From positions 1-24,635 of the IMG/VR virus record IMGVR_UViG_3300031825_000067: DNA of 24,635 nt; one strand, given 5' to 3'. Below are positions 28 to 24,635 of this stretch, one piece after another. Source of the DNA: a virus. The stretch's first letter is position 1; each line of letters begins with the position of its first letter. The notes beneath the pieces are model-generated. The model did no database searches, was not told where the DNA came from, and saw only the letters and a list, made by a program, of their open reading frames with translations. Made by a program: the position numbers and the translations under genes.

Positions 28-93
28 GCCCAACTTTCGAGTTAACCGGACCGGGCGCTTGCGCACGGGTCCGGGTTGAACGAGCGGTTAGGA
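28..93 (+). repeat. attC-like recombination site A
   Basis: Imperfect palindrome with integron attC layout. R'' is GCCCAAC (28-34), a 5-nt spacer follows, L'' is AGTTAACC (40-47), L' is GTTGAAC (75-81), then a 5-nt spacer and R' GTTAGGA (87-93). AACCGGACC (45-53 region) pairs with GGTCCGGGTT. L' carries one extra G relative to L'' (GTTGAAC against GTTAAC), the position of an extrahelical base in known attC sites. The site closes an upstream cassette whose gene is cut by the window edge; a TAG lies at 21-23. R' departs from GTTRRRY only in its last base. The attC assignment rests on this structure and on three similar sites downstream. Confidence 0.8.
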
Positions 94-112
94 CGCCCTG
101 GAGCGAACCAAA

Positions 113-388
113 ATGGCCAAGACAAGAACGAAAAAAGAAGAACCGAGAGAGCCCCCGCCGCCCCCGGCGAAGCTGCCATTCATTCTTTGCGAACTCCAGG
201 AACGGCTGCTGGACGCATGGAACGCCTACACCAAGGACGAGCCCAGGGCGACCGTGATCGGCCTGCTGCGCGACTGCATCAACATGGCCAACGATCTCCA
301 GCATTGGGCTGATGAGCAGGCCGCCGAGCGCCACCAATTCAGGAAAGATCTTCTCGCCTTCGCTGAACGCATCAGGAGGATGCCTTGA
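113..388 (+). CDS. hypothetical cassette protein, 91 aa
   Basis: First gene of a two-gene cassette lying between attC-like sites A and B. ATG at 113 is preceded by GGAG (100-103), 9 nt upstream; a longer reading from 76 would begin inside the attC site and was not chosen. The product has a charged, proline-rich N-terminus (five prolines in a row near residue 17) followed by a helical, acidic/basic body (roughly residues 25-90) with no membrane segment, signal peptide or recognised motif. Its stop codon overlaps the TTG start of the next gene, so the two are probably translationally coupled. Function unknown; cassette genes are often orphans. Confidence 0.75.
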   Translation: MAKTRTKKEEPREPPPPPAKLPFILCELQERLLDAWNAYTKDEPRATVIGLLRDCINMANDLQHWADEQAAERHQFRKDLLAFAERIRRMP

Positions 389-582
389 AGCACTATCCTT
401 TTCACGACTACACCTCGACCAAGGCAATCCGGAAGGCCGCCACCGCTGGGGATGTTGACGCCGCCTTTCGCCACGGGCAGGCCGTCGCCATCGCCCGGTG
501 CCTGACGCAACTGCTGCGGCCCAATAGCGCCGAGCAGATCCGCACCCTGCCCATTCTCGGCATCAAGGAATGGGCGCCCTAA
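385..582 (+). CDS. hypothetical cassette protein, 65 aa
   Basis: Second gene of the same cassette. It starts at TTG (385), which overlaps the TGA of the previous gene, and an AGGAGG lies just upstream (about 374-379), supporting the rare start codon. The stop TAA (580-582) lies inside the R'' box of attC-like site B, a common arrangement in integron cassettes. The small soluble protein has an aromatic N-terminus (HYPFHDY) and a helical centre with AATAGDVDAAFRHGQA. No family recognised. Two coupled genes in one cassette suggest their products act together, which is inference. Confidence 0.65.
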   Translation: MKHYPFHDYTSTKAIRKAATAGDVDAAFRHGQAVAIARCLTQLLRPNSAEQIRTLPILGIKEWAP

Positions 583-651
583 CGCCCCGAGCTAACCCGG
601 GCCGCGCTTGCGCGGGTCCGAGCGAAGCGGGGTTGAGCGAGATGGTTAGGG
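577..651 (+). repeat. attC-like recombination site B
   Basis: R'' CCCTAAC (577-583) and R' GTTAGGG (645-651) are perfectly complementary, and the pairing extends one base outward to GCCCTAAC/GTTAGGGC. L'' is AGCTAACC (590-597) and L' is GTTGAGC (632-638), again with one extra G in L' compared with the complement of L''. The centre contains the short GC-rich inverted repeat CCGCGC-TT-GCGCGG. A purine-rich RBS and the next start codon follow R' within 20 nt. Confidence 0.85.
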
Positions 652-668
652 CGATCAATGGAGGAACC

Positions 669-866
669 ATGGAAATCACACTGAAAGATGGTGGAACGCT
701 GGGTATCGGGTCGATGCCTGGAAGGAAGAAAAAGGCACTCTACCGGATGCATGGATGCCGGGTTGACCCCATCGCCTACTTCTCTACAGACGAAGACGCC
801 GAATGGGTCGAGCGGTTCCTTTCGCAAATCTGCGACCTGGCCAACAAGGCACCGCGGAAGCCCTAA
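669..866 (+). CDS. hypothetical cassette protein, 65 aa
   Basis: Single gene of the cassette between attC-like sites B and C. ATG at 669 follows GGAGG (660-664); the frame stays open upstream to 570 but that would run through the attC palindrome. The product begins MEITLKDGGTLGIG, has a basic GRKKK segment, and ends in a helical region with DEDAEWVERFLSQICDLA. This suggests a small beta-strand plus helix fold. Its TAA stop (864-866) is part of the R'' box of site C. No homologous family recognised and no membrane segment. Confidence 0.75.
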   Translation: MEITLKDGGTLGIGSMPGRKKKALYRMHGCRVDPIAYFSTDEDAEWVERFLSQICDLANKAPRKP

Positions 867-958
867 CGCCCGCCCTTAACCGGCCCCAGCGCAGGCCGGA
901 CCTATCAGAAACCGAATCGCACCCGCGCTGGGGTCCGAGTTGAAGGGCCTGGTTGAGC
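861..958 (+). repeat. attC-like recombination site C
   Basis: R'' CCCTAAC (861-867), L'' around CCTTAACC (874-881), L' GTTGAAG (939-945), R' GTTGAGC (952-958), which fits GTTRRRY exactly. L' has the extra G relative to L'' (GTTGAAGG against GTTAAGG). A 9-bp inner stem CCCCAGCGC/GCGCTGGGG encloses a roughly 30-nt variable terminal segment, making this the longest site here. Variable length in the centre with conserved ends is typical of attC sites. Confidence 0.85.
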
Positions 959-977
959 GCGACCAATGGAGGAACCA

Positions 978-1184
978 ATGAAGTGCCAGAACTGCGGGCA
1001 AGAAGTGAACCCGAAACTCTCGCTGAAGGAATACGAGGCGCGGGCCGTTCCGCGCCTTGAGAGCATTGATCATCTCGCCGGCAAGATCAATTTCGCTACC
1101 GACTGGAAACACACTCCCGAGGGCGAGCGGTACGAACGGCTGATGAGAGAGCAGATGGCCGACGAGGTTGCCGCTGGGTTGTAG
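978..1184 (+). CDS. small CxxC (zinc-ribbon-like) cassette protein, 68 aa
   Basis: Single gene of the cassette between sites C and D. GGAGG (968-972) precedes ATG at 978; an in-frame ATG at 966 is part of the leader and has no RBS of its own. The protein opens with MKCQNCGQEVNP, a CxxC knuckle like half of a zinc ribbon, followed by a charged helical region (KEYEARAVPRLESIDHLAGKI) and a basic/acidic C-terminal helix ending DEVAAGL. No second CxxC is present, so metal binding would need a dimer or other ligands. The stop lies one base before the R'' box of site D. Function unknown. Confidence 0.75.
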   Translation: MKCQNCGQEVNPKLSLKEYEARAVPRLESIDHLAGKINFATDWKHTPEGERYERLMREQMADEVAAGL

Positions 1185-1185
1185 C

Positions 1186-1280
1186 GCCCAACGCCAAGCT
1201 AACCAGCCCCGGCGCTGGATTAGCGACGAAGAAACCACAACCATCAGGCGCCGGGGTCTGAGTTGAGCGCTCGGTTGAGC
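1186..1280 (+). repeat. attC-like recombination site D
   Basis: R'' GCCCAAC (1186-1192, exact RYYYAAC), 5-nt spacer, L'' GCTAACC (1198-1204), inner stem CCCCGGCGC/GCGCCGGGG, L' GTTGAGC (1262-1268), 5-nt spacer, R' GTTGAGC (1274-1280, exact GTTRRRY). L' again has one extra G compared with the complement of L''. It is the most canonical of the four complete sites. L' and R' are the same heptamer here. Confidence 0.87.
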
Positions 1281-1294
1281 GCGTGGAGTGAACA

Positions 1295-1453
1295 ATGAGT
1301 GACAGCAATTCAACGGTTTCGGCGGGCATTGGTTTCGGGAGCGCCCTCGCCATTACTATCTCTTGGAGTGTGAACCACGGGATTTTGTGGGCTATCTTGC
1401 ATGGCATTTTTGGATGGTTGTATGTCGTCTACTACGCGATCTGGGGGCGGTAG
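1295..1453 (+). CDS. small membrane protein, 52 aa, last cassette
   Basis: ATG at 1295 follows GGAG (1285-1288). The product starts MSDSNSTVSAGIGFGSALAI and continues with a hydrophobic, aromatic C-terminal half (ISWSVNHGILWAILHGIFGWLYVVYYAIW), consistent with one or two short membrane-spanning helices. The reading frame is visibly richer in A/T than its neighbours. The TAG stop (1451-1453) is one base before an R'' box, exactly as for the preceding gene. Small hydrophobic proteins of this kind are common in mobile DNA. Inhibition of infection or modulation of the membrane would be speculation. Confidence 0.75.
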   Translation: MSDSNSTVSAGIGFGSALAITISWSVNHGILWAILHGIFGWLYVVYYAIWGR

Positions 1454-1454
1454 C

Positions 1455-1464
1455 GCCCAACTTT
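1455..1464 (+). repeat. truncated attC site (R'' box only)
   Basis: GCCCAAC (1455-1461) sits one base after the stop of the preceding gene, as R'' does in site D. The next three bases TTT also match site A, then similarity stops: no L'', L' or R' is found in the next 140 bases. I read this as the remnant of the last attC of the array, whose remainder was lost at a junction near 1464. The rest of 1465-1603 shows no gene and only a weak CCGG/CCGG inverted repeat near 1566-1580. Confidence 0.6.
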
Positions 1465-1603
1465 GTATTGGACGAGATCACCGCATTCCCCGCCAGTTCG
1501 CCTAATCAGCCCACCCCACCCGTAACTGCTGACGCTACCGTGGGCATCCGAATCGAATAGGCAGACCGGAAAACACCGGATCACCCAACCCCCCAGAGGA
1601 GCC

Positions 1604-1810: not shown

Positions 1811-2172
1811 CCGACGACCCGAAAGCCCTGGTGCCGCCCATGCCGGGTGATCCCGAAGCCATCGACAAAGACCTGACGATCACAGCCCTCAAGGCCCGTG
1901 TCGCAACCCTGGAGGATGGGTCGTTCTTCAAGCGGCAAGGCGCTATCTTGGTGGCCCACCGGACGGAACGCAACGAAGCCCGTGCCGCCCTCGCCTCCAC
2001 CGCCCAGGCCGCAGACGAGGCGGAGCGGAGGATCCGGGAGGATGAGCGGAGACGATACCGCCCGTATCTACATCACCTCGGCAATTGCCACGCAAAACGC
2101 TGGCCCGCTGGTGAATGTAATTGCGGGCTCAAAGCCGCCACCCTCGGCACGGAGAGCGGGGAGGCCGCGTGA
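1807..2172 (+). CDS. hypothetical phage protein with C-terminal His/Cys cluster, 121 aa
   Basis: The start overlaps the previous stop and the end overlaps the next start (GTGA), indicating translational coupling. Residues about 20-85 are a charged alanine/arginine-rich helix likely to form a coiled coil. The C-terminal part has HHLGNC followed by CNCGL, a His/Cys arrangement that could bind zinc; short C-terminal HxxxC...CxCGL patterns are frequent in phage early proteins of unknown role. No enzymatic motif is visible. Confidence 0.65.
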   Translation: MTDDPKALVPPMPGDPEAIDKDLTITALKARVATLEDGSFFKRQGAILVAHRTERNEARAALASTAQAADEAERRIREDERRRYRPYLHHLGNCHAKRWPAGECNCGLKAATLGTESGEAA

Positions 2173-2366
2173 TTCCTGTCAAGTGGCAGGCCCTGTCTGA
2201 CTTCTTCAAGCAGAAGAGGGGCGAGGGCATGTCCTACCACACCATCCAGGCGTGGATGGCCCTTGGGATGCCCCACCAGCGCCCCAGCAAGCACCGCCTC
2301 TGGTTCGACCCGGAGGCCTGCTGGGGGTGGTATCTTGAGCGGTTCACCGTGGAGCGGGCGGGATGA
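2169..2366 (+). CDS. putative excisionase / small HTH protein, 65 aa
   Basis: GTG at 2169 is chosen because it overlaps the preceding TGA and because the upstream part of the frame (from 2121) lies inside the previous gene. The region SYHTIQAWMALGMPHQRPSKHRLWFDPEACWGWY looks like the winged-helix/MerR-type helix-turn-helix of recombination directionality factors and related small DNA-binding proteins: a T-I--W recognition helix, a G-M-P turn, a basic wing, then FDP. The stop overlaps the integrase ATG (ATGA). Position immediately before the integrase supports a role in directing excision; this is inferred from context. Confidence 0.6.
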   Translation: MIPVKWQALSDFFKQKRGEGMSYHTIQAWMALGMPHQRPSKHRLWFDPEACWGWYLERFTVERAG

Positions 2367-3505
2367 AGTTCTGGCGAGGCAAGGACGGCATCTGGAGGGT
2401 GCGGGACACCATCCCATGCCTGCCAGCCCAGTGCGATGCCTGCAAGGCCGGGAAGTCGCACAAGAAGCACTCCAGGCGGTTCCAGAAAAGCCTGGGCAAG
2501 GTGAAGGGTGAAGCCGAGGCCCTGGCCCTGGAGGTGGTCCAGAAAGAGAAGGACCGGGGCAGGGGGGTCGAGCCGATCCCGACCCTCGGCAAGGCCGTGC
2601 TGCGCTGGCTGGCGTCCCACAAGGTGGGCACGAACCGAGACAACAGCGAGGTGAGCTGGGGGCACTGGCGGAACATCGAGGAATTCGGGCGCTGCTACCT
2701 CTACGGCATGGAGGACATGCCGATGGACCGGATCACCAACGAGGTAGTGCAGTTGGCCCGCGGTCGGCACCTCAATGGGCGCACCGGGGCCAGCGCGGAC
2801 CTCTGGCTCCGGAACCTCAACCTAGTCGGGAACTGGGCCGTGGGCGCCAAACTCGTCCCGGCCCGGCCCTGGAAGGTGAAATTCATCGACCCGCCCAAGG
2901 CCCGGAGGCCGACCCTACCCATGTCCATGGTCGCCGCCTACGTTAACGCAGCCCTGGAGGTCAGCTACGTCACCAAGCGGTGGAAGGCTGAGGGCGCCGA
3001 GGTCCGCTATGCTCGGAACGAGCAGGTGAAAACGGCCCTCTACCTGATGTTCGGCCTGCTGCTGCGCGAGGGCGAGGTCCTGGGTTTCCGCTGGGAGTGG
3101 CTGGACCTGGAGAACGAAACCTACTGGCCCGGCTTTGCCAAGGGGAAGGATCTGAAGCCCGTCCCGATGCCCCAGTGGCTGGTGGCCTTCCTGAAGGTCC
3201 TGAAGGGCGATCAGCCACGCTTGGGGCTCATCATCCCCAACGATGACGGCGGACGCCATGGTCCCGGATTCACGCGCAAGGCAATGGCCGCTGCCAACCG
3301 GAAGCTCGGGGTCAAGGGGATCAGCCCCCACCGGATCCGCGGGACTCTGATGACCCAGCTCTTCCGCCAGGGCGCCCCGCCCAAGGAGGTCCAGACCATC
3401 GGTCGGCATGAGGAACTGGAGACAACGATGATCTACTACGAGGAGGACCTAGAGATCGCCCGCCGCCACATGAACGAACTCGGTGATACGATGGGACTGG
3501 CCTGA
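2363..3505 (+). CDS. int: phage tyrosine integrase
   Basis: Tyrosine recombinase, 380 aa, catalysing site-specific recombination between attP and the chromosomal site. The C-terminal catalytic domain (about residues 195-375) has the full set of active-site residues: Arg235 in LLLREGEVLG, a likely catalytic Lys near 260, HRIR at 323-326, His349 in GRHEE, and the nucleophile Tyr358 or Tyr359 in TMIYYEE. The middle (about 75-180) is the helical core-binding domain. The N-terminus holds three cysteines (19, 24, 27) and a basic stretch, suggesting a small arm-binding or zinc-stabilised domain. It ends 60 bp from the attachment core and overlaps the xis-like gene. It is not a recognisable IntI. Confidence 0.93.
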   Translation: MKFWRGKDGIWRVRDTIPCLPAQCDACKAGKSHKKHSRRFQKSLGKVKGEAEALALEVVQKEKDRGRGVEPIPTLGKAVLRWLASHKVGTNRDNSEVSWGHWRNIEEFGRCYLYGMEDMPMDRITNEVVQLARGRHLNGRTGASADLWLRNLNLVGNWAVGAKLVPARPWKVKFIDPPKARRPTLPMSMVAAYVNAALEVSYVTKRWKAEGAEVRYARNEQVKTALYLMFGLLLREGEVLGFRWEWLDLENETYWPGFAKGKDLKPVPMPQWLVAFLKVLKGDQPRLGLIIPNDDGGRHGPGFTRKAMAAANRKLGVKGISPHRIRGTLMTQLFRQGAPPKEVQTIGRHEELETTMIYYEEDLEIARRHMNELGDTMGLA

Positions 3506-3511
3506 AAACAC

Positions 3512-3528
3512 TGGCGCAGAATCGGCAC
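3512..3528 (+). repeat. candidate integrase arm site, left copy
   Basis: TGGCGCAGAATCGGCAC matches 3730-3746 at 15 of 17 positions in the same orientation. It lies between the integrase stop and the tRNA-derived core, 39 bases left of the core. Paired direct repeats flanking the core are the usual form of integrase arm-type binding sites. A weaker third relative, GCGCAAACCCGCAC, occurs at about 3536-3549. Confidence 0.5.
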
Positions 3529-3567
3529 ACCATCTGCGCAAACCCGCACCACCCCTGGATTTTTACA

Positions 3568-3615
3568 AGACTACGAATCTGAGGGTCGGGCGTTCGAATC
3601 GCTCCGGGACCACCA
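3568..3615 (+). other. attP: attachment core: 3' fragment of tRNA-Arg(ACG)
   Basis: The stretch reads as the 3' portion of a tRNA: partial anticodon stem AGA/TCT, loop CTACGAA with anticodon ACG at 3573-3575, variable region, T arm GGGCG-TTCGAAT-CGCTC, acceptor strand CGGGACC, discriminator A and CCA (3613-3615). The 5' half (acceptor strand GGTCCCG and D arm) is absent upstream, so this is not a functional tRNA gene. Such fragments are the identity segments by which phages regenerate a tRNA after integration. Phage genes lie on both sides, favouring attP (or a tandem prophage junction) over a single attL or attR. Confidence 0.8.
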
Positions 3616-3618
3616 AAG

Positions 3619-3643
3619 AAAAGCCCCATTCTACGGGGCTTTT
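3619..3643. terminator. symmetric Rho-independent terminator
   Basis: AAAAGCCCC (3619-3627), loop ATTCTAC, GGGGCTTTT (3635-3643): a perfect 9-bp stem with an A tract before and a T tract after, so it can act on both strands. It sits directly after the tRNA CCA, so it may have been picked up with the tRNA. It also separates the converging integrase (+) and tail-fibre (-) transcripts. Confidence 0.85.
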
Positions 3644-3729
3644 CGCATATTTGGACTTGGTGACACTGCGCGATTCTATTGCTATCCGTTGCCCGTAAGT
3701 GTTGACCGTAGCGCACTGATTTTTTGAAG

Positions 3730-3746
3730 TGGCGCAAAATTGGCAC
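3730..3746 (+). repeat. candidate integrase arm site, right copy
   Basis: TGGCGCAAAATTGGCAC, a direct repeat of 3512-3528 with two mismatches, 114 bases to the right of the tRNA-derived core and before the end of the tail-fibre gene. The pair brackets the core, as expected for P and P' arms of attP. Confidence 0.5.
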
Positions 3747-3805: not shown

Positions 3806-5764
3806 TTAATCCACTGGGTAACTGATGGTCCCCCGGATCTCCATCCCATTCGATAGGTTACCCACGGGAAGTTCGGTCTCCGTGGTGGGGTGGGCCTGCC
3901 GGATGAAGATCACAGTCGGGTCAACGGCGCCGGAAACCTCACCGTAAAGGTTGGTGCAGGATGCGGATAGGGAAATACCAGTCTTCTTTCCGATCACCCC
4001 TGTGTGGAATTTTCCATTGATCGACAGGGGCGCATTGGGTGGCAGGGTGATGCAAGTTGCTCCCGCCATGGTGCCCCCAACAGTGGCTACAACCAACCGG
4101 AAGGCATAGGTGCAGATCTTCCCACTGATGGTGTAGCTGCCCTCCTGGGTGGTGTAGGTATGAGTCCCGGCCGTGCCCGAGCCCTTCATTGTTGGTGTGC
4201 AACTACGCCAAGGCGAAGGGGCTGCCATGCGGACGGCATTGGTCCCAGCGGTGACCATGTTGGGCTGGAGGTAGCGTTTGATCTGCGCCTGGATGGCGGT
4301 AGCGATCTTCGCGTGCCCGATGTCGGAGGGATGGATGTTATCTGTGGCTACGTCGCTGGTGTTGGGGTCGTAGTAGCTGGTGGCGTCGATATACATCACC
4401 TGGAGCCCGTCTGCCGCGAGATCTGAGGCAACACCCTCAGCCATCTTGCAGAAAGCCGCTGTAACGGGGTCAGAGGCGTGATTGTAGGGAGCGCCACCAG
4501 CCGCGCCCGTGGCATTCATGCGGAGGGTATTGGTGAGGAAGACCCTGGCAGAGGTATTCCCAACGGGCCCTGACCCAGCTACCCAATCAAGGTAGGTTGA
4601 AGTTGAACCCGAGGTCGCGTCCTTGCCCACGTTCTTGACCACCACATTGTGAGCACCATCCCCGAGACCGGGGATGCGGATGAGCATGGGGGTGTAGGTG
4701 ATCGAACTGACGGAACCACCGTTCTGAACCGGCTGGTTCAGGTCGTAGGTTCCTTGGTCAACCCCGTCCACGACCACATTCAACAGGCCGCCCTGCCCAG
4801 CCTGCTGGATGGTGCAGATGTAGAGCACAGACCCCGAGATTTGGAAGCTGGCCGTGTCATTGAGCGTAATCGTGTATTTCCCGTAGCTCGTGACAGGGTT
4901 AGCCGACCAGGATCCTACATAAGTGATCCGTGCATCGTTGCCCTTGATCTTCTTGGAATCAGGAATGGCGAGATAGGCGCAGGCAGCGTAGAGCGCGTTT
5001 TGATAGGCGGCATAGTAGGACTTCGTTGTTCCGATGAATCGCAGGTCGTTGAACCCCGGCATGATGAAGGCGATCCCATCATCCGCCACGGGCTGGTTGT
5101 GGCACGGCACAATCCAGTCAGGGATTGATCCCCCTGAGATGGCGTTGTTTGAGAGTGTCCAGCCCATAGCTGTAGACAATAGATTAGCATAAGAATTCGC
5201 CGGGACACTAGTGCCCACACCGGCTGTAATACTATCTCCGTAGGCATAGACATTGGTTGTAGTTTTGCCGGTAGGAAGCCACGCGGTATCAATGGTCCCA
5301 TCAGCTTTGGACTTGACGACACGGGAGGCCGCTGGGGTCACAGATCCACTATCGAGCGCCGCATTGTCTGCGAGGACCTTCCCCACGGACCCCGCTGGAT
5401 AGGTCACGGCAGGGTTGTAGGCCACCAGCGCCGAGCCCTTGCCGGATGCCGTGGAGGCGAGATCGGTGAGCATCACCGCAAAGCTGGCGAGGTCCTGGAC
5501 GTTGTCCTCCGGCCACCCCACCTGGTGCACATCGTTGACGTCGAACAAGTCGATCTTGTAGGCCAACCCCGCACCCAGCCGGAAGCTCGTGGCTCCGTTG
5601 GCGTCCAGGATGATCTCGGACCCGATGGGGGTCGCACCGTCCGCTGCGTAGACGGTCTGTGACGTGGTGGTCCCAGCCTCGTAGAACTTCACCTTCCCGC
5701 CCGGAAGCGGCACGCCCCCCACGAGGGGCTGGAATTTGATGGCAGGCGGCAGGGTCGCGGTCAT
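3806..5764 (-). CDS. tail fibre/tailspike with SGNH esterase domain
   Basis: 652-aa receptor-binding protein, last gene of the late block. ATG at 5764 has GGAG just upstream. Residues about 1-95 form the N-terminal virion-attachment type domain typical of phage fibres (KVKFYEAGTTTSQTVYAADGATP, then a DANG segment). Residues about 170-500 are an SGNH/GDSL hydrolase: block I GDSITAG with Ser178, block III GFND, and block V DNIHPSDIGH with the Asp/His pair. Such domains deacetylate surface polysaccharides. Residues about 310-400 look like an inserted beta-sandwich. The C-terminal part (about 520-652) is beta-rich, possibly for receptor contact or trimerisation. The SGNH call is strong; the substrate is unknown. 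Confidence 0.88.
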   Translation of the reverse strand: MTATLPPAIKFQPLVGGVPLPGGKVKFYEAGTTTSQTVYAADGATPIGSEIILDANGATSFRLGAGLAYKIDLFDVNDVHQVGWPEDNVQDLASFAVMLTDLASTASGKGSALVAYNPAVTYPAGSVGKVLADNAALDSGSVTPAASRVVKSKADGTIDTAWLPTGKTTTNVYAYGDSITAGVGTSVPANSYANLLSTAMGWTLSNNAISGGSIPDWIVPCHNQPVADDGIAFIMPGFNDLRFIGTTKSYYAAYQNALYAACAYLAIPDSKKIKGNDARITYVGSWSANPVTSYGKYTITLNDTASFQISGSVLYICTIQQAGQGGLLNVVVDGVDQGTYDLNQPVQNGGSVSSITYTPMLIRIPGLGDGAHNVVVKNVGKDATSGSTSTYLDWVAGSGPVGNTSARVFLTNTLRMNATGAAGGAPYNHASDPVTAAFCKMAEGVASDLAADGLQVMYIDATSYYDPNTSDVATDNIHPSDIGHAKIATAIQAQIKRYLQPNMVTAGTNAVRMAAPSPWRSCTPTMKGSGTAGTHTYTTQEGSYTISGKICTYAFRLVVATVGGTMAGATCITLPPNAPLSINGKFHTGVIGKKTGISLSASCTNLYGEVSGAVDPTVIFIRQAHPTTETELPVGNLSNGMEIRGTISYPVD

Positions 5765-23555: not shown

Positions 23556-24635
23556 TTAGGAAACATCGGCATGGGCCAGCCTCCGGAACCGCACCAGGGT
23601 GTTCGCGGCCGTCGAGTGGAACGGTGGCAAGTCCACGGAATACCCACAGATAGACAGCGATCCGCCATGCTCGCGGGCCGAGGATCGAAAAGATTCTAGG
23701 TAGCGGCGGAGCTTCTTCTTGGAACTCTCGTCATCGAGACGGACGGACCAGATGTCATGGGCCTTGGCGCTGAACTCGTCAGCGCCGTTCAGCTCGTACT
23801 GGGCGTAGTCGGACAGGGCCTGGAACCAGGGCGCCCCCCGGAGGATGGCGGCCTCCTTGTTTGCTTCGCCGGGGCTCATGATGGCCGCGGCGTCCAGGTC
23901 CAGCACCTTGCAGACATGGAGCATGGCCGCGTCGAAGACCGCCGAGCGGGTGAACTTCACGTCGCCCACAGGCAGCTTGCGGAACGCGGAGTAGAGGTAG
24001 ACCGCCACCCGGTGGAGCCGCAGCGCCCCGCCCTCGGCCATCCATGCGTGGAACCGCTCGAAGGCGTTGTTTCGCTGGAATTTCGAGGCCAGGGGGTTCG
24101 GCTGCAGCTCCACCAGGACGATGCGCTCCTTGGTGGCCTCGTCCTCCGGGTTGATCTTGATCTCGTTGGTGCTGAAGACCACCGGCCGGGGGTAGAGGGT
24201 CATGTCCATGCCGTAGGCTTTGCGCCGCTGGAGCGCCTCACCCCCCAGGAAGGCCTTGAGGTCCTCTGAGGCTGAGCGGTCCAGGTACTGGTCCAGTTCG
24301 TCCTTGAACACGATGGGCAGGTGCAGGGCCGACTCGGTAAGCCACCCGGTTTCTTTCTCGCCGCCGAACCGCTGGGAACCGTAGGTCCGGGTCTCCCCGC
24401 TCACGGCAGCCGCAGTGATCTTCGCGGCGGTGCCCTTGCCGGTGGCTGGCCCCCCATAGAACCAGGTCCCGGGGTTGAAGCCGGCCGGGGTGCCCGTCTG
24501 GCCCAACTCCTGGGCACGCAGTCCGCAGAGCGCGGTGGCGAAGGCCACAGCCATCACGCGAACGCCGGTCTCAGAGGGTGGGGCGCCGGGGATGATCACA
24601 TAGTGGTAGGCGTTCCCGATGGCCTCCTGGACCTC
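23556..24635 (-). CDS. D5/SF3-like replicative primase-helicase, C-terminal part (partial)
   Basis: The frame is open to the right window edge (359 residues visible), so the true start and any primase domain lie outside; an internal GTG at 24599 is not the real start. The ATPase core has Walker A YGGPATGKGTA, Walker B IVFKDELDQYL with the Asp-Glu pair, and the sensor region VVFSTNEIKINPEDEATKERIVLVEL, which carries the conserved STNE and arginine typical of phage/plasmid P4/D5-like helicases. The C-terminal about 130 residues look like a DNA-binding or winged-helix extension. It unwinds DNA at the phage origin. The TAA stop (23556-23558) lies beside the TGTCCG cluster, a plausible origin. Confidence 0.8.
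   Translation of the reverse strand, partial: EVQEAIGNAYHYVIIPGAPPSETGVRVMAVAFATALCGLRAQELGQTGTPAGFNPGTWFYGGPATGKGTAAKITAAAVSGETRTYGSQRFGGEKETGWLTESALHLPIVFKDELDQYLDRSASEDLKAFLGGEALQRRKAYGMDMTLYPRPVVFSTNEIKINPEDEATKERIVLVELQPNPLASKFQRNNAFERFHAWMAEGGALRLHRVAVYLYSAFRKLPVGDVKFTRSAVFDAAMLHVCKVLDLDAAAIMSPGEANKEAAILRGAPWFQALSDYAQYELNGADEFSAKAHDIWSVRLDDESSKKKLRRYLESFRSSAREHGGSLSICGYSVDLPPFHSTAANTLVRFRRLAHADVS

Follow-up and report, generated by a model that had tools for sequence, protein, structure and literature searches.

An attC array with reversed genes and an attI-like site in a P22-like phage that probably infects Holophagae

The window, by which we mean the whole stretch of DNA analysed here, is the 24,635-base linear IMG/VR record IMGVR_UViG_3300031825_000067 (positions 1 to 24,635), and at its left end lies an array of four attC sites. 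Integrons are bacterial gene-capture devices. We located the sites with a covariance model built from 15 diverse Holophagae chromosomal attC adjoining intI, none of them from the window; in the stem of these 15 training sites, 12 of the 26 pairs show changes on both sides. All four sites match on the minus strand: S1 at 27-94 (R boxes 28-34 and 87-93; E = 2.2e-10), S2 at 576-652 (E = 3.9e-7), S3 at 860-959 (E = 1.4e-10) and S4, the closest to the attI-like site, at 1185-1281 (E = 2.9e-13). The best remaining match in the whole window had an E-value of 0.24. The same model recovers the aadA1 attC of plasmid R100 (E = 3.9e-9), so it is valid as an attC detector. An independent two-arm weight matrix, trained on 110 host sites, scored S1 to S4 at 52.8, 33.5, 44.6 and 42.4, against a top score of 27.6 in 40 sequences simulated with a Markov model at the length of the window. 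An Rfam scan of the window gave no match; to our knowledge, Rfam holds no attC family. In each site, the R''-L''...L'-R' boxes are inverted and one L arm contains unpaired bases; judged by their sequence, the four sites are genuine attC. A sequence-only reading of this DNA had placed four attC at these positions and ascribed them to a single lineage. Both methods bear out the positions, and the lineage holds as one taxonomic type, that of Holophagae chromosomal integrons.

All genes of the array lie on the plus strand, with stops inside or adjoining an R box, just as that reading had described. One cassette holds two ORFs: the first (113-388, 91 aa) has no assigned function and matched no Pfam or PHROG family, while the second (385-582, 65 aa) ends in a TAA within the R box of S2. 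The next ORF (669-866, 65 aa) has a weak match to phrog_28431 (E = 3.3e-5), a family of unassigned function. It is followed by an ORF with a zinc-ribbon-like start (979-1184), which has an in-frame upstream ATG at 966, and by one for a hydrophobic protein of 52 aa (1295-1453), the stop of which abuts the R box of the attI-like site. Searches of these five proteins against Pfam and PHROG returned no match of known function, and no convincing relatives of the genes were found in the host and phage arrays.

The array ends precisely at a putative attI of Holophagae type (1455-1507, minus strand), which reads TTAGGCGAAC(N22)GTCCAATACAAA/GTTGGGC and points into the array. In most of the Holophagae genomes examined, the stretch from intI to the first cassette terminates in a motif like CGTCCAATNCAAA/GTTRGGC, often with TAGGCGAAC about 21 nt before it. 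The candidate site resembles these in motif, in its position beside the first cassette and in direction. Across IMG/VR, the core motif occurs in only four records, each with an attC array starting right beside it. The final three bases of both arms vary among genomes, so the motif is better seen as a family resemblance than as an established IntI site. An R box does end at 1464, where a half-site had been proposed, but it is not a lone R'': it belongs to the attI-like site. With four attC in 1.3 kb and no intI nearby, the array resembles a CALIN, defined by at least two attC close together without intI. In the strict sense, however, a CALIN is an attC cluster alone, and the attI-like site means that the element in the window exceeds one.

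Comparable sites were seen elsewhere. Phage G098 (L203/L230/L228) has two attC clusters, of seven and eight sites, and each cluster is flanked at the expected end by an attI-like site. In two phages, a DUF3850 gene (PF12961) lies directly past attI and before replication-like genes (L228, 920-1354; G125, 39254-39688), which suggests that attI fronts an early operon in those two phages.

Past the attI-like site of the window, the plus strand carries two small phage genes (1604-1810 and 1807-2172), and a homologue of the second lies next to the G098 array (tblastn, 45.6% over 68 aa). These are followed by an excisionase-like gene (2169-2366), 81% identical in a prophage of the Holophagae genome G041, and by a gene for a phage tyrosine integrase rather than an IntI (2363-3505; PF00589, phrog_1). 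The array thus ends about 700 bp before xis-int, the distance given in the sequence-only reading. Right downstream of the integrase gene, the 3' half of a tRNA-Arg(ACG) gene on the plus strand (3568-3616) forms the attP core. This piece matches tRNA genes of two Holophagaceae MAGs over 49 nt, acceptor stem included. Over 48 nt, it matches an Acidobacteria MAG and a further MAG belonging to the same class; the remaining matches, mostly in Alphaproteobacteria, extend to at most 41 nt. A 30-nt tRNA pattern was too frequent, and hosts were ranked by match length instead. Relatives of the phage integrase, at 34-42% identity, are found in the class of one of the tRNA-matching MAGs. Together, the tRNA match lengths and the integrase relatives indicate that the host is most likely a member of Holophagae (Acidobacteriota). 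From the relatives of its portal protein, the window is predicted to be part of a temperate P22-like podovirus, and a search of the phage collection gave no DNA match to it. The attC array leaves the contig at the left end, so that its left part is absent from the record. A VapE/primase-helicase-like gene (23556-24635, minus strand; weak match to PF05272) is cut by the right end, and the record is therefore fragmentary at both ends.

We found no IntI above the cut-off in the window record, itself a fragment: the tyrosine integrase, its best match, reached 19.3 bits against an IntI cut-off of 265, in line with the earlier description of an array without integron integrase. Nor was one found in any of eight phage records, 36-60 kb long, that carry attC. 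Among the 93 genomes of the likely host class (that of genome G002), 46 have an IntI above the cut-off, about half of the class carrying a full-length integron integrase. Several of these genomes also contain long arrays of near-identical attC, with 20 or more in 15 kb, and together this marks the class as integron-rich. Genome G041 encodes its own IntI and carries a prophage in which two attC lie upstream of xis-int and the att region is 75% identical to that of the window. Platform and integrase therefore do co-occur in one genome.

Similar arrays occur in other phages. A strict attC pattern gave no match over viral contigs. A looser motif scan selected 18, 15 of which had covariance-model matches, with up to 15 attC per record; three further attC records were reached through the attI motif. 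At least 15 other phage contigs bear such sites; three of these phages, G098, G101 and G111, are P22-like and related to that of the window (portal identity 34-43%). No covariance-model matches to attC were found in the terminase relatives or in the nearest integrase relative, records that may be fragments. This distribution suggests that the platform is gained and lost among related phages. Few of the 71 cassette proteins that we scanned have known domains. They include a Tad2-like Thoeris anti-defence protein (L233, record G104, position 2107-2343 of the oriented array; PF11195, E = 2.3e-24), two Lar restriction-alleviation proteins, two C5 DNA methylases and one protein resembling phosphoadenosine phosphosulfate reductase. 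Record G096 (L201) contains two attC clusters about 7 kb apart, and a 374-bp repeat within it shows 78% identity.

The orientation of the genes sets these arrays apart. In a canonical cassette, the extrahelical G lies in L'' of the bottom, recombining strand and the gene lies on the opposite strand (Bouvier 2009, PMC2727003). This choice of strand is said to ensure that captured genes are expressed (PMC2727003). The aadA1 cassette of R100 follows this rule: its model strand is the gene strand, on which the extra base is a C in L''. For the window, the covariance model matches the minus strand, every gene is on the plus strand and the extrahelical G is on the coding strand; at S1, for example, minus corresponds to the canonical top strand and plus to the recombinogenic strand with the extrahelical G. 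The sequence-only reading rightly noticed an extra G, which lies in the 3' arm on the gene strand, but this G reflects the mirror image of a canonical cassette and not the canonical attC pattern. Whereas integron genes run in the sense set by their attC and away from attI, those of the window do not, and the direction of the attI-like site, an independent marker, agrees with the reversed orientation.

Codon bias gives the same picture. All three scorable cassettes of the window are reversed, as are all confident calls over the phage arrays (27 reversed, none canonical) and in three further phages (nine reversed, none canonical). Because the phage codon table gave no information on cassettes of hosts, we used ORF length for the comparison with hosts. 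By this measure, 25 phage cassettes are reversed and seven canonical, compared with two reversed and 105 canonical in hosts (Fisher p = 4e-19, with cassettes taken as independent). The measure is noisy owing to GC-rich antisense frames, and 7 of the 32 phage cassettes were called canonical by it. We conclude that the genes of the window array are reversed relative to attC and attI, as are most of those in related phage arrays. An inverted intI in Holophagae integrons was also considered, a reading that arose from a finder requiring the extra base in the 3' arm; we rejected it, as the ORFs and R100 show that hosts are canonical and phages reversed.

These orientations weigh against the view that the array is passive cargo, captured as a fragment of the host's chromosomal integron by illegitimate recombination and merely carried. 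The sequence-only reading had pointed to such an origin, and there are reasons to consider it: the attC and attI types match those of Holophagae integrons, one attC of G098 shows up to about 92% identity with the attC repeated in chromosomal integrons of hosts, and captured host integron pieces have been described in Vibrio prophages, according to the main text of Qi et al. (2023, PMC9892861). The 92% identity suggests that phage cassettes likely exchange to some extent with hosts. From its mechanism, however, recombination between attC by IntI should be unable to flip a gene relative to its own attC. Given that the phage genes are reversed, the phage cassettes would then form a pool apart from the bulk of the host's. 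The phage-array cassettes also match 37 phage protein families, anti-defence among them, and such sites recur in other phage records. We therefore regard passive cargo as unlikely, and derivation of the array as cargo from a single chromosomal integron lineage is not supported.

Signs of cassette mobility come from the R boxes. When a cassette is free and circular, the two R boxes on either side of its gene become partners. Over six variable R-box positions, right boxes in the phage arrays agree with the left box of the following site at 5.26 positions and with that of their own site at 4.03. The next site is favoured at 27 phage sites and the own site at four, with eight ties, and host arrays show the same pattern (95 to 8). 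Within the window, this circular relation is favoured at two of three sites, most clearly at S3 (5/6 to the next left box, 1/6 to its own), while the third is slightly opposite.

Comparisons between phages also reveal turnover. G098 and G125, which come from different metagenomes, have 1,496 bp in common at 98.9% identity; this stretch ends at the attI crossover, beyond which their cassettes differ. Identical or near-identical attC or cassettes recur across phages amid unrelated neighbours. S1 shares 93% identity with a G125 attC over 71 nt, the interior of S2 (about 69 nt) is identical to a G098 attC located behind a different gene, and a 274-bp block is common to G098 and G106/G108 at 93%. 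One gene common to G098 and G123 is accompanied by its upstream attC (93% identity), compared with 58% for the downstream attC; of four shared genes compared, this is the only pair in which the upstream attC was clearly carried along. We prefer to read the array as drawn from a cassette pool among phages, and not as part of a host array moved by transduction.

Some of this turnover could be mimicked by homologous recombination between attC repeats, which are 60-130 nt long and similar within and between phages that are themselves mosaic. If this were the main route of cassette swapping, without IntI, the attI and attC would be relics. The better fit of the boxes flanking a gene to each other than of those within a site is the mark of a circular cassette, the divergence of G098 and G125 falls at the attI crossover, and attI is conserved together with its flank. 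All three speak against homologous recombination as the main route, which we consider improbable, slightly more so than passive cargo.

We give little weight to the idea that the palindromes are RNA elements of a phage operon, terminators or translation controls that resemble attC. The phage sites do lie 5' of each gene, and several of their loops contain a ribosome site and an ATG in the frame of the gene; an additional RNA role is possible, though not as the main one. The same covariance model nevertheless fits both the R100 aadA1 attC and host integron attC beside intI, the attI-like site lies at the right end of the array in the right direction, and the R boxes carry the circular-cassette signature. 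A chimeric assembly, in which a bacterial integron fragment was misjoined to a phage contig, can be practically dismissed: the contig is metagenomic and the array lies at its edge, but the same order of array, small gene, and xis-int or phage operon recurs in phage contigs independent of this one and in a prophage of Holophagae, and the gene orientation is unlike that of bacterial arrays.

In our view, then, the window probably contains the integrase-less integron platform of a temperate P22-like Holophagae phage, comprising an attI-like site and at least four attC cassettes on the minus strand. IntI made by the host would act in trans on the phage attI and on the folded attC strand, so that cassettes could be inserted at attI, excised, and swapped between co-infecting phages or prophages. 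The divergence of G098 and G125 beyond attI, the reversed genes, the attI itself and the presence of intI in hosts together suggest that these phages use the host integrase to swap small genes, counter-defence genes among them. The mobile unit would consist of attC, ribosome site and gene, in the order opposite to that of a normal cassette. Because the cassette genes point the opposite way, a Pc promoter at attI would be antisense; transcription from a putative phage promoter may instead cross the array in the direction of attI and continue into the xis-int operon. Counter-defence would be the main benefit to the phage. With somewhat less confidence, we favour the broader proposal that phages of Acidobacteria rich in integrons keep their own pool of reversed cassettes at a phage-borne attI, from which host IntI shuffles counter-defence genes into a phage operon.

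If this is true, phages parasitise the host integron to assemble accessory genes, cassettes can form in reverse orientation, and integron activity feeds the arms race between phage and host. It also bears on the origin of cassettes, as the phage-type genes in phage cassettes make phages a candidate source of them.

That phages carry integron cassettes is not in itself new. Among 10,705 phages, the main text of Qi et al. (2023, PMC9892861) lists 17 CALINs, which like the window are attC clusters in phage genomes lacking intI, and it states that IntI1 recombined some of the phage attC. It also describes an inactive Shewanella prophage, M16-3, with attI at a CALIN, but there intI is also present. 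The main text mentions neither reversed genes nor attI in intact phages without intI, and does not cover host phylum, cassette sharing or attI turnover. One member of the published set, the spring-water phage MW202573 (L002), is a P22-like portal relative of the window phage (46% identity). In its array at 2068-3739, covariance-model matches lie on the minus strand and genes on the plus strand, so that it looks reversed like the window. Chromosomal integrons of Holophagae have the same attC family and attI motif as the window phage, but differ from the phage arrays in having intI in cis and canonical genes. The class 1 integron of R100, whose aadA1 cassette shares the attC architecture of the window, likewise differs in its intI1 in cis and in its gene strand. 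We found no report in the open literature of reversed cassettes, of attI-bearing arrays of Acidobacteria phages or of counter-defence cassettes in phage integron arrays, nor any of a pool of reversed cassettes that has an attI of its own.

A further observation concerns gene starts. We rejected the notion that cassette genes generally start within the preceding attC: a frame starting there was found in 14 of 39 phage cassettes, only three of which have no start of their own. In several phages, the frame that opens at the ribosome site and ATG of the attC loop crosses the R box into the gene and yields an attC-encoded N-terminus, as at 40306-40433 and 4864-4963 of the G098 record and at 50496-50631 of G106. 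One such N-terminus, MQDESNEPKGPVERGVR, is common to two phages.
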